This document shows positions 19,769-39,388 of a stretch of 64,000 bases of DNA, piece after piece. The stretch is taken from assembly GCA_013298665.1 (NCBI GenBank), contig JAAFIK010000015.1, positions 1-64,000 of the forward strand. The letters are read 5' to 3'. The first letter of the stretch is position 1. Each line of letters starts with the position of its first letter. The notes below the pieces were generated by a model. It made no database searches and was not told the DNA's origin. It saw only the letters and a list, made by a program, of their open reading frames with translations. Source of the DNA: Chitinophagales bacterium (GTDB lineage Bacteria; Bacteroidota; Bacteroidia; Chitinophagales; Chitinophagaceae). A program made the translations under genes and the position numbers.

Positions 19769-22219
19769 ATGAGTAAAACCAACAATTTCTTTGAAACGGT
19801 TGATCAAATTGTGTCGGATGGTGTACAAAAAGGAATTCTGCATCTGTATACTGAAGATGATCGTTTATCGGGAAACAGCATTTTACTCAAAGGTAAAGAA
19901 GTCATCAATTTTGGCTCCTGTAGTTACCTTGGACTGGAGTTTGACGACCGGTTGAAAAATGCTGCGAAACTTGCCGTTGATAACTATGGGACACAATTTT
20001 CAGAATCCCGTGCCTATGTTTCAGTACGGCAGTATGCCGAACTTGAAGAACTGCTTCAGCAATTATTTGCGGCATACTGTGTCGTTATGCCTACCACTAC
20101 GCTTGGCCATATTGCCAATATACCCGTTTTGGTAAATGATACCGATGCCGTAATTGTCGACCATCAGGTGCATAATTCGGTACAGGTTGCTATACAGTTG
20201 CTTAAAGCGAGGGGTGTATATATTGAATTGCTTCGGCACAATCGTATGGATTTACTTGAAAGCCGTGTAAAGCAGTTACGTAGTAAACACCGGAAAATAT
20301 GGTATATGGCTGATGGTATCTATTCTATGTTTGGAGATGCCAGCCCGGTTGATGAAGTTTATGCCTTAATGGATAAATACCCGGAATTGCATTATTATGT
20401 TGATGATGCGCATGGAATGAGTATATATGGAAAACATGGGAGAGGGTATGTCCTGAATAATCGCAGGTTCCACCCCAAAATGGTGATGGGTACCTCATTG
20501 AATAAAGCCTTTGCTTCAGGCGGCGGCGTGATGCTTTACCCTGATGCTGAACTTGCCCGGAGGGTACGTACCTGTGGTGGCCCATTGATTACCTCCGGTC
20601 CGATGCAGCCAGCCGCGTTAGGTGCTGCTGTTGCCGCAGCGCGTATTCACCTGTCTGATGAGATTTATGATATGCAGGCTGATCTGCAGGAAAATATACG
20701 GTTTGCCCAGTTGATGCTTAAGAAATATGGATTGCCCGTTATTTCGACTACTGGTGCAGCGGTATTCTTCATTGGCGTAAGTTTGCCCAAGATGGGTTAT
20801 AACATGATCCGGCGGATGCTTAATGCAGGCTATTACCTTAATCTTGGTATTTTTCCCGCGGTGCCGATGAAAAATACAGGTATCCGCTTTACAATTACCC
20901 GGCTACACACTTTCAGCCAGATTGAGCGTATGGTTCAGACAATGGCGGAAGAGTTCCCAAAGGCACTTGCTGAAGAGGGGTTGACTATGGCACAGATTTA
21001 TAAAGCCTTCAAAATGGCTTTGCCGGAAGACCTTTCGCTGGATAAAGCAGTTGCTGCTGTAATTTCGCAAAGCCTCGCCCTGAAAACAAGTCATTCTACC
21101 AGTATACAAGGTGTAGATCGTCAGTTGTGGAACAGTTTGTTTCATGGTAATGGTACTTTTGACTGGGAAGGAATGGATCTGCTTGAACGTTCTTTTACCG
21201 GGAACGAAAAGCCAGAAGACAACTGGCAGTTTGATTATATTGTTGTGAGCGATACTGCCGGAAACCCCATCGTGGCTACCTTTCTGACTACCGGGTTATG
21301 GAAAGACGATATGCTTTCCCCGGGAGCAATTTCAGCCCAGATCGAAGCCAGGAGAATTGCTGAACCCTATTACCTTACCTCGAAAGTAATTTGCACCGGC
21401 TCTTTACTGACAGAGGGGCAGCATCTTTACATCAATCGCGAATCCTCTCTTTGGAAGGACGCCATGCAATTGCTGTTTGAAAAAATTTATGTACTGCAGG
21501 AAAAGAATAAAGCTGCTAATATCATGTTGCGGGATTTTGACGGAATAGATGAGGCGTTAGACAGTTTCTTCGTGGATAATGGATATTTCCGGATTTCTAT
21601 GCCCGATAACAATATTGTATTGACCCATACCTGGCATGACCGTGAAGGGTTTGTTCAGCATTTGTCCGCCAACTCCAGGGTGAATTTTAAAAAGTATGTG
21701 GCCAGGCATGAAGGTAAGTTTATCACTGAAATCAGGAAAAACCCTGCGCCAGAGGAGCTTGATTACTGGTATTCCCTTTACCTTAATGTAAAAGATCATA
21801 GCCTGGCACTCAATACATTTACGCTGCCACGAAAAATTTTTGAAAACATCGCCGCCCACCCCGACTGGGAAATAATAACACTCAAGGTTAAAGATAATTA
21901 CGATTTTACAGGGATCGAAAAGCCGGTATGCGTTATATTTTGTCATAAAACGGCAGATACCTATACACCATTAGTGATTGGATTGGACTACAGCTATCAT
22001 AAAGAATACAATACATACAGGCAGGCTCTATACCAGATTGTCATGCGGGCTAAGCAACTAAACTGTAAAAAAGTGAATCTTGGTTTTTCGGCCGGTACTG
22101 AAAAGCGAAAGGTTGGTGCGGTATCCCGCTCAACTTATGCTTATATGCAAACCAAAGATAGTTTTAACTTTGAAGTGCTTGCCGCCATGAATACATCTTC
22201 TTCCGCATACAAGATGTAA
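19769..22219 (+). CDS. Alpha-oxoamine synthase fused to a C-terminal acyltransferase-like (GNAT/FemAB) domain
   Basis: Protein of 816 aa. Residues 1 to about 420 are an alpha-oxoamine synthase of the AONS/serine palmitoyltransferase/KBL family: NFGSCSYLGL, VDHQVHNSVQVA, the PLP aspartate and His in YVDDAHGMSIYGKHGRG, and the PLP lysine Lys246 in GTSLNKAFASGGG. Such enzymes condense an amino acid with an acyl-CoA. Residues of about 450-816 look like a GNAT/FemAB-type acyltransferase region (VNFKKYVARHEGKF, GLDYSYHKEYNTYRQALY, KKVNLGFSAGTEKRKVG). In Bacteroidota, enzymes of the first type make sphingolipids or the sulfonolipid precursor capnine; a fused N-acyltransferase would suit such a pathway, but the substrate is inferred. 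It is monocistronic and divergent from the kinase operon. Confidence 0.82.
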   Translation: MSKTNNFFETVDQIVSDGVQKGILHLYTEDDRLSGNSILLKGKEVINFGSCSYLGLEFDDRLKNAAKLAVDNYGTQFSESRAYVSVRQYAELEELLQQLFAAYCVVMPTTTLGHIANIPVLVNDTDAVIVDHQVHNSVQVAIQLLKARGVYIELLRHNRMDLLESRVKQLRSKHRKIWYMADGIYSMFGDASPVDEVYALMDKYPELHYYVDDAHGMSIYGKHGRGYVLNNRRFHPKMVMGTSLNKAFASGGGVMLYPDAELARRVRTCGGPLITSGPMQPAALGAAVAAARIHLSDEIYDMQADLQENIRFAQLMLKKYGLPVISTTGAAVFFIGVSLPKMGYNMIRRMLNAGYYLNLGIFPAVPMKNTGIRFTITRLHTFSQIERMVQTMAEEFPKALAEEGLTMAQIYKAFKMALPEDLSLDKAVAAVISQSLALKTSHSTSIQGVDRQLWNSLFHGNGTFDWEGMDLLERSFTGNEKPEDNWQFDYIVVSDTAGNPIVATFLTTGLWKDDMLSPGAISAQIEARRIAEPYYLTSKVICTGSLLTEGQHLYINRESSLWKDAMQLLFEKIYVLQEKNKAANIMLRDFDGIDEALDSFFVDNGYFRISMPDNNIVLTHTWHDREGFVQHLSANSRVNFKKYVARHEGKFITEIRKNPAPEELDYWYSLYLNVKDHSLALNTFTLPRKIFENIAAHPDWEIITLKVKDNYDFTGIEKPVCVIFCHKTADTYTPLVIGLDYSYHKEYNTYRQALYQIVMRAKQLNCKKVNLGFSAGTEKRKVGAVSRSTYAYMQTKDSFNFEVLAAMNTSSSAYKM

Positions 22220-22693: not shown

Positions 22694-23845
22694 TTATTTT
22701 TTCGATAACAACTCAGCAAAAGCTGCCTTTAAGAAAATACCCTGCGGTACAGACCACATAATTCCGAGCTCTTCCGCAAATGAACTGTCATTATCAAGAA
22801 ACCTGAACAACCGGGATGCCTTATTCCGTTTAAACAGCCTCGCGAATAATTCATCACCGGGTATTTTTCCTGCCGATAATACATGGAGCAACGTACTGTC
22901 ATACAACGCAAACCGATTTCTGCCGGCTGGTATACCAGCGAACGGGGGACTGCCATTTTGCAGGTTTTTTACAATGGCTGCTGTCTGTTTTTGTATAAAC
23001 TGAAAGGTATAACCGGTGGAAGCCTTGGTCTGCCCTCCTGCGGTGCCAATAAAATATATACCGTCTTTTTGTCGTGGAAAATGGGCATTCGTCATGGGAA
23101 TAACGCCAAACTCTTCCTCCACTAAGCGATAATCTGTTATCTTAAGGTGCTCGTGGATGTACGTACGCAGCGAGGCTTCATATTGGGCAGGTTTGAGCAG
23201 ACTTTCGGTAAAAAGGGTAAATTCGATCAGCGCCTTGTGGTCGGTTAACGGCATAACATAAACAAAGCCTGTTCCATATTCCTGACTGATGGTAAAATCC
23301 ATCAATGTAGCACATGACTGATCAAAATGAGGTTGATCGGTTTCGATCAGCCACCCTTTAAAATGCTGCAGCAAATAATGCTTGTGTTTCTGTTGGGGTA
23401 TTTCCTGCCGGAGTGATGAGAAAACAAGCGATCCGGAATGTCTGTTGATGGATTGTGTTTTAAGGTGTATGCTATCTGAATCTGTAGCAATGACCTCATC
23501 ATATATGATATCGATGTTTGAATATTGGCTGATAAGTCTGTAACAGTGATTGTAAAAGTCTATACCCCGAATCATTTTATAACGGTAAGGCTGCATATTG
23601 AGCACTCCATTAAAATCTTTGCTGCGAAAGATAACCCGCTCCCAGTTGCGTATGACTACAGGTTCGAAAAAGCCTGCGCCCGCTTCCCAAAAACACCATG
23701 TACGGTCATTCTGTATTTTTGGTGCCTGGTCAATGAGCAGTATTTTTTTTTCTGTAAAAAAAGGTGTCTCAGTCAGGCGCAGCAACAGGCTTAATCCGGC
23801 ACAGCCTGCACCCAGTATGATGATATCGTATGTTTTTTGGGGCAA
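22694..23845 (-). CDS. crtY: Lycopene beta-cyclase (CrtY type)
   Basis: FAD-dependent lycopene cyclase of 383 aa. The dinucleotide-binding motif DIIILGAGCAGLSLLLRL is at the N-terminus, and the CrtY signature NDRTWCFWE follows near residue 47. Further family stretches are YGTGFVYVMPLT, EEFGVIPMTNAHFP and GTAGGQTKASTGYTF. It closes beta-ionone rings on lycopene or on the free end of a hydroxylated acyclic intermediate. It is the last gene of the carotenoid operon, 38 nt after crtZ. With the CruF- and CrtD-like enzymes present, one end of the molecule is probably cyclised and the other hydrated. Confidence 0.92.
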   Translation of the reverse strand: MPQKTYDIIILGAGCAGLSLLLRLTETPFFTEKKILLIDQAPKIQNDRTWCFWEAGAGFFEPVVIRNWERVIFRSKDFNGVLNMQPYRYKMIRGIDFYNHCYRLISQYSNIDIIYDEVIATDSDSIHLKTQSINRHSGSLVFSSLRQEIPQQKHKHYLLQHFKGWLIETDQPHFDQSCATLMDFTISQEYGTGFVYVMPLTDHKALIEFTLFTESLLKPAQYEASLRTYIHEHLKITDYRLVEEEFGVIPMTNAHFPRQKDGIYFIGTAGGQTKASTGYTFQFIQKQTAAIVKNLQNGSPPFAGIPAGRNRFALYDSTLLHVLSAGKIPGDELFARLFKRNKASRLFRFLDNDSSFAEELGIMWSVPQGIFLKAAFAELLSKK

Positions 23846-23883
23846 TGGTTGTTAAGATAACTGTTTTCGCTGAAAAGCAATAA

Positions 23884-24363
23884 TCAGGGCTTTTGCTGAA
23901 TGTGCTTGTCCCGCCTGGTTTTTTGCCAGTAGCGGGAAGCTACAATCAGCATGCCAAAACTTTCTCCCTCCTGTTTTTCAAGGTGTTTGTGGTGCATTTT
24001 ATGAGCCCAGCGGATGGTACGCACATAGCGATTGTTACTGCGGGTAAACCATGGAAACCGTTGGTGGATAATTACATCATGTACGAGAAAATAAGCCAAT
24101 CCATACATAGCCACCCCGAAACCAATGGCTGCGGTCCAATATACCTGATGCTGAAGCCCCAGCATGATGCAAAGCCAGCTGGGGATGGCAAAAATCAGAA
24201 AGAAGGCATCATTTTTCTCAAAAAAACCGGATCCTTTCTGGTGATGGTCTTCATGCAGATACCATAAAAAACCATGCATTACATAACGATGGGTAAGCCA
24301 TGTGATGCCTTCCATGCAACAGAAAGTAAACAATACAATGGATATGAATAAAAACTCGTTCAT
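23884..24363 (-). CDS. crtZ: Beta-carotene 3-hydroxylase (CrtZ type)
   Basis: Membrane-bound di-iron hydroxylase of 159 aa. It carries the full set of histidine boxes: HRYVMH (25-30), HEDHH (about 37-41), HDVIIH and HKMHHKH. Four hydrophobic segments surround them. It adds a hydroxyl to C3 of the beta-ionone ring. The start is 3 nt after the stop of the CruF-like gene, and crtY follows 38 nt later, all in one operon. Confidence 0.92.
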   Translation of the reverse strand: MNEFLFISIVLFTFCCMEGITWLTHRYVMHGFLWYLHEDHHQKGSGFFEKNDAFFLIFAIPSWLCIMLGLQHQVYWTAAIGFGVAMYGLAYFLVHDVIIHQRFPWFTRSNNRYVRTIRWAHKMHHKHLEKQEGESFGMLIVASRYWQKTRRDKHIQQKP

Positions 24364-24366
24364 GCA

Positions 24367-24993
24367 TCAATAATAAAATGTTCGCAGCAGCAGAAAAAAC
24401 ATCAGTTGAATAAGTAACAAATGTATGGCGAATTTGTTGTTTTTGGAAAAAGGCAGAAAGTGAAAAAAGGTCAGGAGGAAAGCTCCTGCAAGGAACCAGC
24501 AGGCATAGTTGTAAAAAGGAATGGTTCCATCTCCTTCCCATTGCCAGAAGCCCAGTTTCACAGCTAACGGCTCCATTACCCAATCAAAAAAAACAGCCAG
24601 CGTGGCACCATCAATGGCTACAGATAGCAGCCGGAGTGGTGGCGATGGTACCTGGCCGGTTGCCGACAGCCGCTGTGCAATCTTGTTCAGTATAGTGTGA
24701 ACGGCTATGCCGCAGCAATACATTATTATAAACCAGTTTACCCCTATAAGTAATGGTACTCCCTGCCAGCGGTAACCCAGTACAGTACCATAGCTGTACC
24801 GGCCAAAAAGCATACCGGTATTCACTCCGATCCATTCCAGCATCAGGCCGGCTATAGTGGCAACTGCAACAAAGCATACAAAAAAGCGATTGGGCTTATC
24901 CTGTGTCCAGACCAGGAGTACAAACATCAGCAGCAGATTGAACGGTGTAGAGTGGATGAAAAACTGCCGGTATGTATCTGAGATGATACCCAT
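24367..24993 (-). CDS. cruF: CruF-like carotenoid 1,2-hydratase (carotenoid biosynthesis membrane protein)
   Basis: Polytopic membrane protein of the Caroten_synth family, at least 208 aa, with motifs GVNTGMLFGRYSYG, GVPLLIGVNW and DGATLAVFFDWVMEPLAVKLG. Members add water across the terminal C1-C2 double bond of acyclic carotenoid ends. The first ATG is at 24993, but the same frame is open for about 45 codons upstream and encodes a good first membrane helix (HTIATILALLFHGFGA). There is no ATG, GTG or TTG in that stretch, so a rare start (ATC at 25101 or ATT at 25035) or a sequence error is possible. It probably overlaps the end of the crtD-like gene. The gene lies between the CrtD-like and crtZ genes. 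Confidence 0.83.
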   Translation of the reverse strand: MGIISDTYRQFFIHSTPFNLLLMFVLLVWTQDKPNRFFVCFVAVATIAGLMLEWIGVNTGMLFGRYSYGTVLGYRWQGVPLLIGVNWFIIMYCCGIAVHTILNKIAQRLSATGQVPSPPLRLLSVAIDGATLAVFFDWVMEPLAVKLGFWQWEGDGTIPFYNYACWFLAGAFLLTFFHFLPFSKNNKFAIHLLLIQLMFFLLLRTFYY

Positions 24994-25084
24994 TGCACCA
25001 AAGCCATGAAAAAGCAGGGCAAGGATAGTGGCAATGGTATGTTTATCCTTGTTGCGTAAAAGAAGCCTGTGGGGTGCCGCTATG

Positions 25085-26584
25085 TTATTTTCGGTGCTGA
25101 TGGTGTGCTGATTTTTGCTGTTGAACTAAATTTGCAACAATACGTGCACTTTTAAGGCAAAGCGGGATACCCCCACCCGGGTGAACACTTCCACCACAGA
25201 AATACAGGCCTTTGATCCCTCCTGTGAAATTCGGGTGTCGTGCGAAGGCTGCCAATCTGGCGTTGGAGCTTGTACCGTACAGTGATCCCATATAACTTTG
25301 TGTTGACGCTTCGATGCCGGAAGGATTAAGTATCGTCTCTGTTTCGATAAGGGATTCAATATCTGTTGCTAAAAGGCGGGTTAGCTTGGCAATGATATTC
25401 TTTCGTGCGTTGGAAACCAGTGTTTCCCAATCCTGTCCCGTATTGGCCGGTGCATTAATCATAACAAACCAATTTTCCTTGCCTTCCGGTGCGTGCCCGC
25501 TCTCCATTTTAGCAGTGATGTTGATGTATACCGTAGGGTCATCATGTAATTTTTTATGCTGAAACAGGCATTCAAACTCCTTCTTATAGTCTGCACTGAA
25601 AAAGATATTGTGGAGGTGCAGCCGGGAAAACTGCTGTTGTATGCCCCAATAAAAAATAATAGCACTGCTGCTCCGCTCCTGTTTCAATAACTTCCGTGCC
25701 TTAAAGGGGTTGTTGAGCAGGCGGCTGTAAGTAAAATAAGCATCTACGTTACTGACCACAACATCAGCCATAATGTTTTCTCCATTCGCGACCACCCCGC
25801 TAACCCTGCCTTCATGGTGAATGATCCGCTCTGCGGGAGTGTTAAAATGAAAGTGTACCCCCCTGGTTAAGGCAAGTTGATACAGTGCTTTGGTAATACT
25901 GATCATGCCTCCTTTGGGATACCAGGTACCCTGGCTATGTTCCAGGTGAGGGATAAGGCTGAGCATACCGGGAGCTTTATAGGGATTGCTTCCATTGTAT
26001 GTGGCGAAGCGATCGAAGAGTTGAATTGCTTCCGGTGTTGTAAAGCTGTTCCGGTTGTGTTTGTGCAGGCTGCCAAAGAGATAACTCCACTTTGCGGCAC
26101 CCATGGCCTTCCATATCCTGCGATGCAACCATGTACCGCGTTTATGAAGGGAGTGATCAATAAAGACAGTGCCGGTATTTTCATATAGCCGCCCTGCTTT
26201 TTTCAAATAACTGCGCAGGTGAGCGGGATTTTCCCCCAATTGTGTTTCTGCTTCAGTTGCAAAGGCTTCCAAATTGGTATATGCATTAACTAACTTTCCA
26301 TTTTCGTAAAAATACCTGCAGGCAATATCTACCGGTGTACAGGAAAAATAAGACGCTATTGGCTCTCCGGCGAGTGTAAATAATTCTTCGATATTCGATG
26401 GCTGGGTAAAGAGAGACGGGCCGGCATCGAACTGGTAACCGTTTTGCTCAAATGCAGAGAGTTTGCCTCCGGGGTAACTGTTTTTCTCGTAAACATTAAC
26501 TTCATATCCCTGAACAGCAAGGCGAATCGCAACAGCGAGACCGGCAACACCGCTTCCGATAATGATGGCTTTTTTGGGGTGCAT
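25085..26584 (-). CDS. crtD: CrtD-like carotenoid desaturase (CrtI family)
   Basis: FAD-dependent desaturase of 499 aa in the CrtI/CrtN/CrtD family: N-terminal AIIIGSGVAGLAVAIRL, then YEKNSYPGGKLSAFEQNGYQ, and a C-terminal FAD motif YFCGGSVHPGGGIPLCLKSA. A separate phytoene desaturase gene (28047-29564) exists, and this one sits directly before the CruF-like hydratase gene. By known pathway logic it is the 3,4-desaturase that acts on 1-hydroxylated carotenoid ends. That specific role is inferred from context. The stop lies inside the extended reading frame of the next gene. The upstream gene is idi, 48 nt away. Confidence 0.86.
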   Translation of the reverse strand: MHPKKAIIIGSGVAGLAVAIRLAVQGYEVNVYEKNSYPGGKLSAFEQNGYQFDAGPSLFTQPSNIEELFTLAGEPIASYFSCTPVDIACRYFYENGKLVNAYTNLEAFATEAETQLGENPAHLRSYLKKAGRLYENTGTVFIDHSLHKRGTWLHRRIWKAMGAAKWSYLFGSLHKHNRNSFTTPEAIQLFDRFATYNGSNPYKAPGMLSLIPHLEHSQGTWYPKGGMISITKALYQLALTRGVHFHFNTPAERIIHHEGRVSGVVANGENIMADVVVSNVDAYFTYSRLLNNPFKARKLLKQERSSSAIIFYWGIQQQFSRLHLHNIFFSADYKKEFECLFQHKKLHDDPTVYINITAKMESGHAPEGKENWFVMINAPANTGQDWETLVSNARKNIIAKLTRLLATDIESLIETETILNPSGIEASTQSYMGSLYGTSSNARLAAFARHPNFTGGIKGLYFCGGSVHPGGGIPLCLKSARIVANLVQQQKSAHHQHRK

Positions 26585-26632
26585 GATTGCTAATATTGAC
26601 GCAATCCCGATGGATACGTCTTTTTCTTTATT

Positions 26633-27145
26633 TTATCCTGCAAGATACTCTTCCAGCTTTGGAAAAGCAATTTTAAACCACGCTGTATATTTTTCAGGAA
26701 AACAGATTAAGTTGTCCCGGATATCATCCATAGGCTTGTAGCAATAATCCTGCACTTCTGCGGGGTCGGTGTTTATCGTGCCTTCATATATACCAGTAAA
26801 TACATGGTCAAATTCATACTCGGTCAATCCGTTATCAAAGGCGGCCTTATATATAAAGGAAAATGCGTTGTTCAATTGAGTGGAGAACCCCATTTCTTCC
26901 TGCAGGCGCCGACAGGCGGCCATTGATGTACTTTCTCCCGGAAGTGGGTGACTACAGCACGCATTTGTCCACAAACCGCCGCTGTGGTATTTGGAAATGG
27001 CTCGCTGTTGCAGTAACATTTCTCCTGAACTATTGAAAATAAATACACTGAATGCCCGGTGCAGGATGGCCTGCCGATGGGCCTGCATTTTTTCCATCAG
27101 CCCCAGCTCCTGGTCAGCTTCATTAACTAGAATTACCTGTGTCAT
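26633..27145 (-). CDS. idi: Isopentenyl-diphosphate delta-isomerase, type I
   Basis: Nudix-fold isomerase of 170 aa that interconverts IPP and DMAPP. The catalytic Cys64 is in TNACCSHP (CxHP), the acid Glu111 in EYEFDHVF, and the Nudix-like helix in AACRRLQEEMGF. The length is normal for bacterial type I enzymes. In the carotenoid operon between crtB and the crtD-like gene, it supplies the DMAPP needed for geranylgeranyl diphosphate. Confidence 0.94.
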   Translation of the reverse strand: MTQVILVNEADQELGLMEKMQAHRQAILHRAFSVFIFNSSGEMLLQQRAISKYHSGGLWTNACCSHPLPGESTSMAACRRLQEEMGFSTQLNNAFSFIYKAAFDNGLTEYEFDHVFTGIYEGTINTDPAEVQDYCYKPMDDIRDNLICFPEKYTAWFKIAFPKLEEYLAG

Positions 27146-27210
27146 AAGGTGTTATACTTTGCAGAAACAAATTCCGGCGATGAGGAAATGTACTGCTGAT
27201 CAAAAAATAA

Positions 27211-28050
27211 TTACAAAATGTTGAACTGGCTGCGAATTCCGGCCTTGGCAAGAATGAGTACTTTACCAAAATTGGGGATGCGTATTCGCTGCTCAAGGAT
27301 ATGGGATGGCTTGGTTTTCTTAATTTTCTTAAAAAGAGAAAGGTAATATTTGTAAGCTACATATACGCCAAATCTTGCCTTAACGGGTAATTGCAGGATA
27401 CTTTTGTATGCTTCTTCAAAATCTGAAGCGATATCTGCTTCAATCTGTTGTTTATCAGACCTGGTGAAATTCATAAAGTCCACACCGGGAAAGTAGGTTC
27501 TGCTGAGGAACTGATAATCAGCTTTTACATCGCGCAGGAAATTTACTTTCTGAAATGCGGCACCAAGGGAGCGTGCACCACCCATAAGTTGCTTGTATTG
27601 TTGCTGATTACCGTCACAAAACACACACAGGCACATCAATCCCACCACTTCAGCACTACCATAAATATATTCTTTATAACCCTCACTATTGTAACTTGTT
27701 TTGCTGAGATCCATCTCCATGCTGTTGAAGAAGGCTTCGATGAGGTGCAGGGGTATATTATACTTGTTAACAGTAAGCTGAAAACTATGCAGGATAGGGT
27801 TGAGGCAAATGCGGCGTTCTATAGCGCGGTAGGTCTCTGTTTTAAATTCGTCGAGTAATGCTGCCTTATCATGGCCATGAAAAGTGTCCACAATTTCATC
27901 GGCAAAGCGAACAAAGCCATAAAGGTTAAACACAGGGCCACGCAGGTCGGGGTGCAACAGTCTGATGGCACTGCTGAAAGACGTACTGTACTTTTCCGTC
28001 GTTATTTTGCTGCATAGTTGACTTACCTGGTGAAACAAGTCCATCATCAA
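27211..28050 (-). CDS. crtB: Phytoene synthase
   Basis: Squalene/phytoene synthase family protein of 279 aa. The first aspartate-rich motif is DEIVD (51-55), the second is in FLRDVKADYQ, and YGSAEVVGLM is the family signature. It joins two geranylgeranyl diphosphates to phytoene. The ATG overlaps the end of crtI by 4 nt, which suggests translational coupling. No GGPP synthase gene lies in the window, so that enzyme must be encoded elsewhere. Confidence 0.95.
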   Translation of the reverse strand: MMMDLFHQVSQLCSKITTEKYSTSFSSAIRLLHPDLRGPVFNLYGFVRFADEIVDTFHGHDKAALLDEFKTETYRAIERRICLNPILHSFQLTVNKYNIPLHLIEAFFNSMEMDLSKTSYNSEGYKEYIYGSAEVVGLMCLCVFCDGNQQQYKQLMGGARSLGAAFQKVNFLRDVKADYQFLSRTYFPGVDFMNFTRSDKQQIEADIASDFEEAYKSILQLPVKARFGVYVAYKYYLSLFKKIKKTKPSHILEQRIRIPNFGKVLILAKAGIRSQFNIL

Positions 28051-29564
28051 AGTTCGGTTTTATTTTTTTGACCAAAATATTTAAGTACCTGACCGGCAAC
28101 CACTTCCCCGCTGATGAGGCTGGGGGGGACGCCTGGCCCCGGCACAGTTAGCTGGCCGGTAAAAAAAAGATTCTTTACCTTTTTGCTGCGGCATGAAGGT
28201 TTTAACACCGCCGTTTGCCATAAAATATTTGCCAGGCCGTAAGCATTGCCCTTAAAGCTGTTGTAAGCCGATACAAAATCACTGTTGGCAAATGATTTTT
28301 TTACAACAACCGCATCACGTATGGTTTGCCCGATCCGTTGTTCGAACCGTTGGGCAATTATATCAAAATACTTATCCCGCAACGCTTCTGAGTCATCCGT
28401 AAGGCCTGCTGCAACGGGAATCAGGAAAAAAAGATTCTCCCCTCCTTCGGGTGCCACAGTTGTATCGCTGACGGACGGCGCACTTACATAAAAAAGAGGC
28501 TCAGTTGGCCAATCAGGAGTAGTATAAATTTCGGCTCCATGCTGGTCAAACGGCACGTCAAAAAATAGTGTATGATGCGTTAAATGCTTTAATTTTTTGT
28601 TCAAACCAACGTAATAAATCAAACAACCAGGTGCCATGACTCTTTTTTCCCAGTACGCATCTGTATAAGTTTGGTAAACTGGTGAAAGCAGTTGCTTCTC
28701 GATAAAATGATAATCTGCACTCCCAATAACTACATCAGCTTCAACGACAAGTTTCTCAGCCTGGGGGGTATTATCATACCTGATTGCTGTTACCGTTTTA
28801 GCCGTATGATCAGCAACCTGTATGTCAGTTACATTGGTATCAAAATGAAATTTGACGCCGAGATCAAGTGCCAGCCGGTACATCGCATCAACAATACTGT
28901 ACATACCACCCTTGGGATACCAGGTACCAAGTTTGATATCTGCATAATTCATAAGGCTGTACAATGCAGGGGTGTCTTGCGGTAATGCACCCAAAAAAAG
29001 GACGGGAAACTCAAGCAATTGCCGTAATTGCGGATGTTGAAAGAACTTGTGAACATGTTTGCGTACAGATGTAAAAACATCAAGTCTGAATAAGCCTTTC
29101 GCGAGATCCCAATCAAGAAATTCACGGTAAGACAGTCCGGGCTTAAAAACGAGTTTATTGATGCCCACCTTGTATTTATACGCAGCTTCTTTCATAAACT
29201 CATCAAGGCGTAAGGCACTTCCGGGTTCTAACCGTTCGAAAATTTCCTTTAACCGGCCATAATCTGCAGGGATATCCATTATGCTATCCTTCTGGTAAAT
29301 ACGATAGGAAGGATCAAGCCGCTCTAAAGTGTAATAATCAGCCACATTTTTACCAAAACCTGCAAAATAGCGTTCAAATACATCCGGCATCCAATACCAG
29401 CTTGGGCCCATATCAAATGTGAAGCCATCAACCTTCATCTGGCGAGCACGCCCACCCGGAATACTGTGCTTCTCCAATACGAGTACATCCCAACCTGCAC
29501 GAGCCATAAATGACGCTGCTGACAGACCTGAAAACCCGCTTCCGATAACGATTACTTTTTTCAA
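28047..29564 (-). CDS. crtI: Phytoene desaturase
   Basis: FAD-dependent desaturase of 505 aa. The N-terminal FAD motif is VIVIGSGFSGLSAASFMARAG, followed by VLEKHSIPGGRARQMKVDGF and FDMGPSWYW. The C-terminal signature is NLFFTGQLTVPGPGVPPSLISG. This is the canonical CrtI form that converts phytoene to lycopene in four steps. It follows the ECF sigma gene by 62 nt and overlaps crtB by 4 nt, so it is the first enzyme gene of the operon. Confidence 0.95.
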   Translation of the reverse strand: MKKVIVIGSGFSGLSAASFMARAGWDVLVLEKHSIPGGRARQMKVDGFTFDMGPSWYWMPDVFERYFAGFGKNVADYYTLERLDPSYRIYQKDSIMDIPADYGRLKEIFERLEPGSALRLDEFMKEAAYKYKVGINKLVFKPGLSYREFLDWDLAKGLFRLDVFTSVRKHVHKFFQHPQLRQLLEFPVLFLGALPQDTPALYSLMNYADIKLGTWYPKGGMYSIVDAMYRLALDLGVKFHFDTNVTDIQVADHTAKTVTAIRYDNTPQAEKLVVEADVVIGSADYHFIEKQLLSPVYQTYTDAYWEKRVMAPGCLIYYVGLNKKLKHLTHHTLFFDVPFDQHGAEIYTTPDWPTEPLFYVSAPSVSDTTVAPEGGENLFFLIPVAAGLTDDSEALRDKYFDIIAQRFEQRIGQTIRDAVVVKKSFANSDFVSAYNSFKGNAYGLANILWQTAVLKPSCRSKKVKNLFFTGQLTVPGPGVPPSLISGEVVAGQVLKYFGQKNKTEL

Positions 29565-29626: not shown

Positions 29627-30127
29627 TTAAAAACGGGACAATTGTTCTTTGAGAAGTTTTCGCGCAAAGTGAATCCTGCTCTTAATCGTACCCAATGGTT
29701 CTTTCAGTACTACAGCAATTTCATGATACTTATACCCCTCAAAATACAGGTTAAAAGGCTTTCTGAATATATCAGGTAATGCGTGTACTGCTGCCTGTAT
29801 GTCTTTAATCTGCAGGTTAGCTTCAGCGGCATTGTATACAGGAGACTGGCTTCTGTCGAGCAGCGCATCATTAGGTGTATAGTCGAAGATTGTATTCTGT
29901 TTAGCCTTCCTGCGGTAATCGTTGATGAAAATATTGCGCATGATTGTATAAAGCCATGCTTTAATATTTGTACCAACATTATACTTTTCCCGGTTTGCCA
30001 ATGCCCTGTACATGGTTTCCTGTAAAAGATCCTTAGCTACTTCTGAATCGCGGGTAAGCGTGGTAGCAAATGGTTTCAGGAAATCTGTATTGTTAAGGAG
30101 CATCTGGCTGAATTCGATGGTTGACAT
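29627..30127 (-). CDS. ECF-type RNA polymerase sigma factor
   Basis: Sigma-70 family protein of 166 aa. Region 2 (about 10-80) has DLLQETMYRALANREKY and IKAWLYTIMRNIFINDYRRK. Region 4 (about 105-160) ends with HEIAVVLKEPLGTIKSRIHFARKLLKEQL. It heads the carotenoid operon, 62 nt before crtI, which recalls light-induced sigma factors such as CarQ and LitS. No anti-sigma gene lies next to it. A -7 box (TACATTTG) is centred about 30 nt upstream, and a 20-bp element shared with the carH-like gene lies 60-80 nt upstream. Confidence 0.92.
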   Translation of the reverse strand: MSTIEFSQMLLNNTDFLKPFATTLTRDSEVAKDLLQETMYRALANREKYNVGTNIKAWLYTIMRNIFINDYRRKAKQNTIFDYTPNDALLDRSQSPVYNAAEANLQIKDIQAAVHALPDIFRKPFNLYFEGYKYHEIAVVLKEPLGTIKSRIHFARKLLKEQLSRF

Positions 30128-30153
30128 AACAGAATGTTTAAATATTGATACAA

Positions 30154-30161
30154 CAAATGTA
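30154..30161 (-). promoter_or_regulatory. -7 box of the sigma-crt operon (TACATTTG)
   Basis: Read on the minus strand, this is a perfect TAnnTTTG box, 26 nt before the sigma factor ATG. It would start the transcript of the whole carotenoid operon with a leader of about 20 nt. Confidence 0.5.
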
Positions 30162-30186
30162 AACAGAATATTTTAAATAAACCAGT

Positions 30187-30206
30187 ATTTTGTTTAATTT
30201 ATTTGT
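30187..30206. promoter_or_regulatory. Shared 20-bp element, copy 1 (candidate CarH operator)
   Basis: Plus-strand sequence ATTTTGTTTAA-TTT-ATTTGT. The same sequence with only the three central bases changed (AAC) occurs at 31286-31305 upstream of the carH-like gene. It lies just upstream of the -33 region of the sigma-crt promoter, where a repressor would block transcription. A TTTGTTTA/TAAACAAA inverted repeat (30190-30197 and 30214-30221) overlaps it. Confidence 0.5.
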
Positions 30207-30253
30207 CGCAAAACTAAACAAATTGATTGTCAATGTCTTAATTCCGACTCATC

Positions 30254-30286
30254 GGAGTGAATGGCGTAAAAAAGGGAGTGAATGGC
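30254..30286. repeat. 12-bp direct repeat GGAGTGAATGGC
   Basis: Exact copies lie at 30254-30265 and 30275-30286, 21 bp apart (two helical turns), between the carH terminator and the sigma-crt promoter. Possible second regulatory site; nothing more can be said. Confidence 0.45.
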
Positions 30287-30315
30287 ACGAAAAACGGAAA
30301 AAGAACAATTCGGAT

Positions 30316-30350
30316 ATTAAAAAGAGCCACCATAAGTGACTCTTTTTAAT
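30316..30350 (-). terminator. Rho-independent terminator of the carH-like gene
   Basis: Stem ATTAAAAAGAGCCAC (30316-30330) and GTGACTCTTTTTAAT (30336-30350) with a 5-nt loop and one mismatch. On the minus strand it follows the regulator stop by about 20 nt and ends in a T-rich tract. It should insulate the regulator gene from the sigma-crt operon. Confidence 0.8.
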
Positions 30351-30369
30351 AAAATGGTGCTATTGGGAA

Positions 30370-31248
30370 TTACAATCCGCTTACAAATTCCATAACCTCG
30401 CTGAACGATTTTTTGAACGTGATCGGCGGGGGAATCTTCTTCTCGTAAGTATGGGTAAGGTGCCCCGAAATAACAATCGGACAGTTGCTGAATTTTTTGG
30501 TGATATTGCTGATGAACCGGTCAAAATTGAAATTTTGGCCTACCGTGGTGAGGTGACAATAAAGATAATCAGGTTTTTTGAGATTCACCACATAGGCAAT
30601 ATCGTCTAATGGAACGCTTGACCCGAGATAAATGGTGTTTACACCTCTGTTTTTGAGTAAATAACACATAAAAAGAAGACCCAATTCATGATATTCACCT
30701 TCAGGTAAAAATAAGAGAACAGTTTTATCCACATGCAGAGAGGAAACAATGCTTTCAATGCCAACAATAAGTTTCTGACGGATTATATTGGTTACAAGGT
30801 GTTCCTGCGCAGGATTTATATGGCTGGTAAGCCATAAAATACCAATCTTTTCGAGATATGGAAAGATGATCTGTGTAATGGTACGCTCTATGCCCCTGGA
30901 CAGGATGTAATTATCAAGAATCTGTTCAAAATGCTCAACATCCAGATCAACCATACACTGAATCATTTCATTGACAATTCTTTCCTGCTGGGCTTGTAAC
31001 TGATTTAGTGAGAGCAGTTTTTCACGTATATCGGCCTCGCTCATCTTATCAATATGCGATATCTTATAGCCATATTTATTGAGGAGCGCAATATTGAGTA
31101 TTTTTTTTAACTCCGAGTTACTGTAGTACCTGATATTGGTATCTGTGCGCTCGGGTTTCAGGAACGAATACCGCTGCTCCCATATCCGGATGGTATGTGC
31201 CTTGATTCCGGACAAATTTTCAAGGTCTTTTATCGTAAAGGAACTCAT
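30370..31248 (-). CDS. carH: CarH/LitR-like MerR regulator with cobalamin-binding domain (probable light sensor)
   Basis: Regulator of 292 aa. A MerR-type winged helix (1-65: FTIKDLENLSGIKAHTIRIW, NIRYYS) is followed by a helical bundle and a B12-binding Rossmann domain. The helical bundle holds Trp139 and Glu149-His150 (W-x9-EH), the upper-face signature of CarH. The cobalamin ligand motif is ExHxxG in GEYHELG, with His187. CarH family members bind adenosylcobalamin in the dark, repress carotenoid genes, and leave the DNA after light breaks the Co-C bond. Its place directly upstream of the sigma-crt operon and the shared 20-bp element fit this. The ATG at 31248 is preferred over a TTG at 31266. 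Confidence 0.85.
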   Translation of the reverse strand: MSSFTIKDLENLSGIKAHTIRIWEQRYSFLKPERTDTNIRYYSNSELKKILNIALLNKYGYKISHIDKMSEADIREKLLSLNQLQAQQERIVNEMIQCMVDLDVEHFEQILDNYILSRGIERTITQIIFPYLEKIGILWLTSHINPAQEHLVTNIIRQKLIVGIESIVSSLHVDKTVLLFLPEGEYHELGLLFMCYLLKNRGVNTIYLGSSVPLDDIAYVVNLKKPDYLYCHLTTVGQNFNFDRFISNITKKFSNCPIVISGHLTHTYEKKIPPPITFKKSFSEVMEFVSGL

Positions 31249-31285
31249 TATGAATGCTTTATGCAAGTATTACAACCAGTTATTC

Positions 31286-31305
31286 ATTTTGTTTAAAACA
31301 TTTGT
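31286..31305. promoter_or_regulatory. Shared 20-bp element, copy 2 (candidate CarH operator)
   Basis: Plus-strand sequence ATTTTGTTTAA-AAC-ATTTGT, 17 of 20 bases identical to the copy at 30187-30206 and in the same orientation relative to its gene. It lies 38 nt before the regulator ATG, so autoregulation is a natural reading. An ACTGGTT sequence follows both copies, directly in copy 1 and after 5 nt in copy 2. Confidence 0.5.
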
Positions 31306-31327
31306 AAATATATTAAACATTATGGTG

Positions 31328-38041: not shown

Positions 38042-39388
38042 ATGAACTATCTTGACTATATACTGTTTCCTGTTTATGTTGCGTTTTTTTATCTGGTTTT
38101 TGCTGCGCGCCGAAAAAAATATACCGACCCTTTACTTAAGAAATATCATTTGCAGGGCTTTTGGATCAAAGTGCTTGCTACTATACCTTTTACCTTTTTT
38201 AACTCTAAAATATCGGTAGGCGACTCATTTGTTCTTTACTGGCTGGAGGGACATAATATTTTTAAGCTCATCCTTCAGGATCCGGACAATATCAAATGGC
38301 TTTTCGTAAAGGGTAAAGATTTTGACCAGTCGCTTTTGGCAGATATCTGGAACCTGGGCTATTTTAACGATGAGAACAACTATATGGTGGCCCGTATTGT
38401 GGCCATGCTTTCGTTTTTAACATTTGGTAAGTACTTTGTGATTAACCTTTTCTTCTCAATGATATCTTATTCGGGTGTATGGCGATTGTACCGGTTTTTT
38501 TATGAATTGTACCCTCACCTGCACAAACAACTGGCCATGGCCATACTCTTCCTGCCTACTTTTGTGTTCTGGAGTGCGGGCATCCTTAAAGACTCAATCT
38601 GTACCGGAGCCCTGGGGTGGCTTACCTATGCCCTGTATGAAATGTTTTACAAAAAACAGGGGTTGATTAAGAATACCTTTATCATTCTTTTTGCTTCCTA
38701 TATGCTCATCAACCTTAAGATTTATATCCTCATTTCTTATGTTCCGTTCTTCTCTCTTTTTCTCATCCTGAAGAATGTGAATTTAGTAAGGAATAAACTG
38801 GTGAAACTGATGCTGGGGCCGATGCTGATTGTGGGTAGTGTGTTTGCTGGTCAGCAGGTCATGAAAAAATTTCAGAATGAATTGGGGTCATTTGCCACAG
38901 ACGGGCTTACAGACCGGATAAAAGGCCAGCAGGAAAATTTTAAGGAACAGGCTAAGGCAAATATCGGGGAGTCGAATTTTTCGCTGGGGGTTGATTTTGA
39001 TGGTTCGCTGTCCGGGCTTTTAAAAATGGCTCCTGCTGCCGTTATCGCAACCCTTTACCGACCCTTTTTGTGGGAGTCGCGTAAGCTTTCTACGGTACTG
39101 AGTTCGTTAGAAAGTATGGCAATGATGTTATTGACGCTATATGTCCTCATGAAGGTTGGGCTGAGACATTTTGCCCGAACGCTTATTAAAGACCCTACAG
39201 CTTTGTATTGTATTTTGTTTTCCATTTTGTTTGCATTATTTGTTGGTGCTACCACGCTCAATTTTGGTACACTTTGCCGGTACAAGATTCCCTGTATGCC
39301 ATTTTATGTGATTGCCATGATCATTATCTTAGATCGCCATCGCCATCGTCAAAACAGCCTGAAACCTGTAGTGGCCAAGACTGTTTAA
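38042..39388 (+). CDS. Multi-pass membrane protein, candidate polysaccharide polymerase, copy 1
   Basis: Protein of 448 aa with about nine hydrophobic segments. A conserved motif, LPTFVFWSAGILKDSICTGAL, recurs in the homolog at 51515-52894 (SFIYWSSGLMKDTICISCM). Other shared parts are FRPFPWEA/YRPFLWES and TLNFGTLCRYKIPCMPFY/TPNFGSLARYKIPCLPFY. It lies on the plus strand against minus-strand operons. Size, topology and context in a Wzx-type locus suggest a Wzy/EpsG-like polymerase, but no diagnostic motif proves it. The ATG at 38042 is favoured over a TTG at 37991. Confidence 0.75.
   Translation: MNYLDYILFPVYVAFFYLVFAARRKKYTDPLLKKYHLQGFWIKVLATIPFTFFNSKISVGDSFVLYWLEGHNIFKLILQDPDNIKWLFVKGKDFDQSLLADIWNLGYFNDENNYMVARIVAMLSFLTFGKYFVINLFFSMISYSGVWRLYRFFYELYPHLHKQLAMAILFLPTFVFWSAGILKDSICTGALGWLTYALYEMFYKKQGLIKNTFIILFASYMLINLKIYILISYVPFFSLFLILKNVNLVRNKLVKLMLGPMLIVGSVFAGQQVMKKFQNELGSFATDGLTDRIKGQQENFKEQAKANIGESNFSLGVDFDGSLSGLLKMAPAAVIATLYRPFLWESRKLSTVLSSLESMAMMLLTLYVLMKVGLRHFARTLIKDPTALYCILFSILFALFVGATTLNFGTLCRYKIPCMPFYVIAMIIILDRHRHRQNSLKPVVAKTV

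Follow-up and report, generated by a model that had tools for sequence, protein, structure and literature searches.

A conserved inverted repeat at sigma-carotenoid and carH promoters is a candidate operator of CarH-type B12 photoreceptors in Bacteroidota

The 64,000-nucleotide stretch of Chitinophagales DNA analysed here (the window) carries three copies of an inverted repeat, two before an operon in which an ECF-type sigma factor gene heads carotenoid (crt) genes and one before a carH-like gene. The conserved unit is this 30/31-bp dyad, TGTTTAA-N16/17-TTAAACA, and not the 20-mer noticed earlier. We consider it likely, with a probability of roughly 85%, that the dyad is a CarH operator at which adenosylcobalamin-bound CarH would repress transcription in the dark and be released by light, with autoregulation of carH in this genome. 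On comparative sequence evidence, Bacteroidota appear to induce protective carotenoids in light via a B12-based repressor that acts on a mirror-image site.

Three dyads at the sigma-crt and carH promoters

The original prediction drew attention to two near-identical 20-mers, ATTTTGTTTAATTTATTTGT at 30187-30206 and ATTTTGTTTAAAACATTTGT at 31286-31305. The window sequence bears out their positions, their identity at 17 of 20 bases and their common orientation, which they share because the sigma gene and the carH-like gene downstream of them are both read from the minus strand. A search of the 4.83-Mb genome for ATTTTGTTTAA-N3-ATTTGT, as had been proposed, returned these two exact matches only, both at this locus, and eight more places at 2 mismatches. 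Within the window, three places matched the 20-mer pattern when as many as 3 mismatches were allowed; shuffled sequences averaged 0.59, and 2 of 100 reached three. A place at 39224-39243, with 2 mismatches to the 20-mer, lies inside an open reading frame and was taken as chance.

Read on the gene strand, the 20-mer is ACAAAT-N3-TTAAACAAAAT, that is, the right arm of the dyad with its flank, plus an ACAAAT contributed by the spacer. This full form stood upstream of sigma in 1/108 and upstream of carH in 1/121 loci of the same family, the window itself both times, and in none of the 75 sigma and 80 carH upstream regions of a second locus set; the shorter ACAAAT-N3-TTAAACA was found upstream of sigma at 2 of 108 loci, the window and one relative. 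The expectation that the 20-mer would recur upstream of orthologous genes thus failed: the full pattern was present in none of the relatives examined, which keep the TTAAACA arm and do not conserve the ATTTGT portion. Because relatives retain only one of its arms, the 20-mer was rejected as the operator. The claim that it marks the best candidate operator stood insofar as the element belongs to a candidate operator before both sigma-crt and carH. The element as first listed was too short; the partner arm before sigma had been missed, as had a second operator (30135-30165) by the sigma start codon. The features of the locus are as follows.

31290-31319, minus strand: candidate operator before carH, TGTTTAA-N16-TTAAACA, perfect arms at 31313-31319 and 31290-31296; overlaps the second 20-mer
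30370-31248, minus strand: carH-like gene, 292 aa, MerR DNA-binding domain and B12-binding region
30191-30220, minus strand: candidate distal operator (O1) of the sigma-crt promoter, TGTTTAG-N16-TTAAACA, arms at 30214-30220 and 30191-30197; overlaps the first 20-mer
30182-30184, minus strand: putative -33 element TGG, 20 bp upstream of the -7 box and between O1 and O2
30154-30161, minus strand: putative -7 box TACATTTG, consensus TAnnTTTG; overlaps the left arm of O2
30135-30165, minus strand: candidate proximal operator (O2) of the sigma-crt promoter, TGTTTAC-N17-TTAAACA, arms at 30159-30165 and 30135-30141
29627-30127, minus strand: ECF-type sigma factor gene heading the crt genes, Pfam Sigma70_r2 and Sigma70_r4_2
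22694-29564, minus strand: carotenoid-type block of seven genes downstream of sigma, assigned by Pfam families and listed next
28047-29564, minus strand: amine-oxidase family, crtI-like
27211-28050, minus strand: SQS_PSY, crtB
26633-27145, minus strand: NUDIX, idi-like
25085-26584, minus strand: second crtI-like gene
24367-24993, minus strand: Caroten_synth
23884-24363, minus strand: crtZ-like by our reading, without Pfam match
22694-23845, minus strand: lycopene cyclase

The names crtI, crtB, idi and crtZ are what we take these gene families to be. The gene directly after sigma is crtI-like and no anti-sigma gene is found there, so that CarH would control the sigma factor and the operon together. 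In the family, carH is followed by sigma in 105/121 loci, and the full order carH-sigma-crtI-crtB-idi, which links carH genetically to carotenoid genes, is present in 78/121. Also in the window, an 816-aa open reading frame (19769-22219) presumably encodes an alpha-oxoamine synthase-kind aminotransferase fused to a further domain.

A relaxed dyad pattern matched five places in the whole genome of this organism, three of them at this locus, and two places in the reversed-letter control. The two remaining matches, at an open reading frame without Pfam match and at a START_2 gene, are unproved as regulon members. The only photolyase found in this genome has no dyad in its locus.

The adjacent regulator keeps the cobalamin residues of CarH

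The product of the carH-like gene matched Thermus thermophilus CarH (5c8d) at E=6.3e-20 in phmmer, over query residues 5-219 of 293 aa. A MerR-type N-terminal domain is present (Pfam MerR_1 52.7 bits and MerR 32.8 bits, both above cut-off), as is the four-helix-bundle part of the cobalamin domain (B12-binding_2 31.9 bits, cut-off 23), which the alignment to CarH spans. For the Rossmann part, the Pfam B12-binding score of 23.7 bits is under the cut-off of 32.1; its assignment therefore rests on the partial phmmer alignment, which stops at residue 219, and on conserved residues, including the ligand His187. The cobalamin signatures that the original prediction had named were confirmed: with M1 at 31248, Trp139, Glu149, His150 and His187 are all in place, Glu185 too, and both Wx9EH and ExHxxG are present.

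None of these residues (W139, E149, H150, E185 and H187) varies among 32 aligned proteins, and across 121 family rows the W is found in 121, the E in 119, the H in 120, the second E in 121 and the second H in 120. The motifs GxxW, EH, GxxH and GxxxP, as given in the accessible part of the SignatureFinder work, are all readable in the window protein, and the genome encodes a cobalamin adenosyltransferase (PF01923). Bacteroidota CarH proteins share the recognition-helix motif KAHT and the wing motif TNIR; the corresponding Thermus motifs are SAEV and GGHR. Assignment to the class II LitR type, in which only the four-helix bundle is kept and B12 is not bound, was rejected, as H187 and G209, which in CarH belong to the Rossmann part, do not vary among the 32 proteins. 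The same genome also encodes a second CarH-type protein (C30:24487-25290, locus L385) at 36% identity.

The geometry of the dyad is conserved in the family

CarH matches were found in 193/294 genomes of the same family. The 121 family loci comprise the window and 120 places from 120 genomes, mostly the best matches of the 193, and lining up their upstream regions revealed the shared inverted repeat. Dyads were scored upstream of genes with the arms TGTTTAA and TTAAACA at no more than 1 mismatch each and a start distance of 22-26, and were compared with 200 dinucleotide shuffles. Among the 108 family loci that have a sigma gene with carH nearby, 103 carry a dyad upstream of sigma by this scoring, 58 of them two or more (shuffles: mean 4.7, largest 11 in 200).

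The spacing of the arms is narrowly fixed. In the 108 loci, 121 arm pairs have a start distance of 24, 40 of 23 and one of 25; at the other distances between 14 and 34 there are 6, 6, 6 and 3 pairs at 14-17 and 0-3 elsewhere, with about 1 per distance in shuffles. Information content across 89 aligned loci is 1.3-2.4 bits per column in the arms and at most 0.33 in spacer columns 12-18. Where two dyads are present (62 loci from the carH-nearby and unlinked sets), they lie 55-57 bp apart in 59 of 63 cases.

The dyad also has a fixed relation to a promoter-like element. TAnnTTT[G/A] occurs within the proximal dyad in 81/102 family loci, 80 of them at the same offset, against a shuffle expectation of 10.5; the strict form TAnnTTTG, reported as the -7 consensus of Flavobacterium psychrophilum in the portion of that work available to us, is found in 40/102. 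TTG/TGG triplets are commonest in the family 19-21 bp upstream of the -7-like box.

Upstream of carH itself, a dyad is present in 30/121 family loci (shuffle mean 2.2, largest 9) and an exact right arm in 46/121 (reversed-letter control 4). The autoregulation that had been proposed is, as predicted from these sites, clear in this genome, where both arms before carH are perfect, and not general, since the dyad precedes carH in only 30 of 121 loci. A second locus set, drawn partly from the same genomes as the first, had the dyad before sigma in 75/75 loci with a sigma gene, among them Ferruginibacter paludis, Sediminibacterium goheungense and Hydrotalea flava, and in 23/79 carH upstream regions.

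The dyad before sigma is found where carH is found

A dyad stands before sigma in 102/108 loci with carH nearby and in 11/11 loci with carH elsewhere in the genome, compared with 3/25 loci without a carH match. The association of dyad and carH is strong by Fisher's test (p 1.5e-17), a value uncorrected for relatedness. The carH-less set comprises 25 genomes with sigma among the matches listed and no carH match at E 1e-3; in them, the shuffle rate would give about 1 dyad, versus the 3 observed. Counting loci with a total of at most 1 mismatch gave 112/118 for those bearing carH versus 1/25 for those lacking it. The three carH-less loci with dyads are L304, which has a perfect dyad and no carH found in an assembly that is 69% complete, and L294 and L303, whose dyads are weak. 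All 25 genomes keep sigma (L294-L318), and six of the loci keep crtI-crtB-idi beside it. Conversely, the dyad was absent from six loci with carH nearby (L056, L082, L116, L118, L129 and L153). Ten more loci came from genomes in which all CarH matches are distant or in which sigma lies at the edge of a contig; 4 of these loci had the dyad and 6 lacked it.

Whole-genome counts of the exact dyad follow the same division. It was found in 129/148 genomes with a carH ortholog (reversed-letter control 21), in 32/45 whose CarH matches are all more distant (control 12) and in 20/101 with no CarH match (control 19); the ortholog threshold of 1e-75 was chosen after inspecting the match list. A tree-based pair test on 144 sigma proteins yielded only 3-4 supported pairs and was not significant. 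In a within-genus comparison made after that test, the carH-less member has the worse dyad in 6 of the 7 genera with both kinds (g9, g25, g35, g77, g81 and g86), the exception being g14, which contains L304.

The dyad recurs in other families and beside photoprotection genes

In the phylum sample, a CarH-like protein was present at E 1e-30 in 59/296 genomes, and 21 loci from other families were examined. Within 3.1-3.9 kb, 15/21 had a dyad with at most 1 mismatch in all, against 1/21 in the reversed control. The dyad recurs in six further Bacteroidota families, in f5 at 4/6 loci and in f10 at 1/2; f2 (0/2) and f6 (0/1) show none. In L341, L342 and L346 it immediately precedes crtI without an intervening sigma gene, and in L347 it is 1.2 kb away from carH. 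In Persicobacter psychrovividus, two dyads lie within 260 bp before the carH relative and a weaker one further away.

In genomes with only a distant CarH match, exact dyads were found within 55 bp of genes for a carH paralog (L367, L373, L174), photolyase and photolyase-related proteins (L375), GTP cyclohydrolase I/folE (L374), PTPS (L368, L172), crtI-like proteins (L378, L383, L175, L176), DUF2805 (L376, L382) and SOUL (L171). Part of these genomes were picked for having many dyads; of 19 dyad places in the many-dyad genomes, 7 are at clear light-protection, pigment or carH genes, 2 at DUF2805 genes, and 10 are unclear or intragenic. The 23-bp distance prevails in six genomes of this class (22/25 exact dyads). 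The dyad-linked genes in these genomes probably form a light regulon. Exact dyads were also seen 160 bp before the gene of a sigma-70 factor that has regions 1.2 to 4 (L160:1501-1530, genome G100) and 5 bp upstream of a fasciclin-domain gene (L384:1528-1558, genome G250, which has a carH ortholog).

A model of light-relieved repression and its alternatives

We propose that in the dark adenosylcobalamin-loaded CarH would bind the dyads. O2 lies over both the putative -7 box and the presumed start site, and the end of O1 is just upstream of the -33 region; with this placement over the promoter, the ECF sigma factor and the carotenoid genes would stay off in the dark. Light would break the cobalt-carbon bond; CarH would then disassemble and come off the DNA, allowing transcription of the operon. 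Through the dyad before its own gene, the repressor would limit its synthesis. Two dyads 55-57 bp apart provide four arms, which would suit four DNA-binding domains, supplied by one CarH tetramer or by two cooperating dimers.

A wider proposal is that Bacteroidota CarH binds 30/31-bp inverted repeats two-fold symmetrically, as MerR proteins do, that the whole core promoter of the carotenoid genes is clamped by one adenosylcobalamin tetramer (or two dimers) whose four DNA-binding domains each occupy an arm of two dyads spaced 55-57 bp, and that the same box defines pigment, photolyase and pterin light regulons across the phylum. We offer this only tentatively, as a possibility that is somewhat more apt to fail than to hold in all its parts.

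Could the dyad instead be read by the ECF sigma factor itself, or be a plain conserved promoter and no repressor site? The fixed offset at which it overlaps the -7 box, and the sigma gene that adjoins it in the family, would fit such a role. However, genomes that keep sigma and lack carH rarely have the arms (3/25), even though L301, L306, L307, L308, L312 and L314 among them keep crtI-crtB-idi, and the dyad stands directly before crtI in three loci that have no sigma gene there. The site is, moreover, symmetric and has a second copy upstream of the -33 region. Because of the carH-less genomes and the loci without sigma, we disfavour this reading and regard it as very improbable. That the protein on the dyad is a MerR-type activator, or a B12 sensor that plays no part in the response to light, is a less remote alternative and still a quite unlikely one. 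According to the available part of the literature on them, MerR proteins can act as repressors or as activators, and the promoter sites they bind are pseudo-palindromic; against this, the adjacent protein keeps the photoreceptor cobalamin residues and the signature motifs as far as the partly accessible source defines them, the dyad covers the -7 box, and the genes linked to dyads in distant-CarH genomes include photoprotection genes.

Of greater weight is the question of which CarH-type protein occupies the site, the adjacent one alone, the second paralog (C30:24487-25290), or both. In favour of the paralog, its recognition helix is likewise KAHTxRxWEQRY and it keeps the W/EH residues, two arms overlap its start codon (one perfect, the other with 2 mismatches), and in genomes whose CarH matches are all of the distant class the exact dyad occurs well above control (32/45 versus 12/45). 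Yet the paralog has EFHEIP in place of ExHxxG, and in the five other sampled genomes of the genus (G034, G126, G193, G241 and G281) the ortholog is the sole CarH match and the exact dyad is present. The paralog of this genome might share the dyad sites; that the dyad belongs to it, or to both proteins and not to the adjacent CarH alone, seems to us unlikely, yet the most serious of the alternatives. We retain repression by the adjacent CarH as the preferred reading.

CarH, the model photoreceptor of the B12 type, also serves as an optogenetic tool. If the preferred reading is right, the same core in an inverted arrangement across a phylum would mean that the way CarH assembles on DNA is open to rewiring. 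Light-controlled genes across Bacteroidota could then be sought with the dyad as a pattern, and a 31-bp probe would make it possible to test directly whether flavobacterial and chitinophagal pigments are under light and B12 control.

Comparison with known systems

A literature search gave no CarH operator in Bacteroidota among the matches listed. Classical MerR operators have arms with roughly 10 bp less between them, located within the spacer that separates the two promoter boxes. The dyads resemble them, to the extent that the accessible descriptions allow, as pseudo-palindromes for a winged-helix dimer within or overlapping the promoter.

A likeness also exists to the LitR/CarH family repressors of class II in Pseudomonas. 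The accessible portions of the reports on PplR1 and PmlR2 give the consensus T(G/A)TACA-N12-TGTA(C/T)A, 18 bp from start to start, and expect no B12 binding; P. putida LitR is described there as controlling phrB, folE and cryB. Light-inducible phrB and folE are the kinds of gene that lie beside dyads in distant-CarH genomes, whereas the site here, TGTTTAA-N16/17-TTAAACA, differs from that consensus. Inverted repeats at a carotenoid promoter recall the M. xanthus crt promoter, where they were proposed as the CarA site; the same paper, in the part available, later suggests that CarA too recognises direct repeats and not inverted ones.

The closest comparison is with CarH itself. The adjacent protein has the same architecture, a MerR DNA-binding domain followed by a cobalamin-binding domain, and the same Trp, Glu-His and His residues. 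Operators of CarH from Thermus thermophilus, Bacillus megaterium and Myxococcales consist, in the accessible accounts, of tandem 11-bp direct repeats nnnnTnnACAn, some of them degenerate. T. thermophilus HB8 yielded three such 11-bp repeats when we scanned it with this pattern. Tandem repeats of the full TnnACA core were not enriched in the family (108 loci), where same-strand pairs numbered 4 at a spacing of 11 bp, 7 at 22 and 3 at 33, and the Thermus-type arrangement was rejected here given 4 pairs versus 145 converging pairs of cores at 24/25 bp. The dyads are thus like the known CarH operators, as far as those are described, in having a TnnACA core in each half-site (TAAACA within TTAAACA) and in overlapping a carotenoid promoter, and unlike them in that the arms converge 23/24 bp apart, with the cores at 24/25, instead of following one another in tandem. 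Taken together, the candidate operator of Bacteroidota keeps the TnnACA core found in the sites of known relatives and differs in its arrangement.
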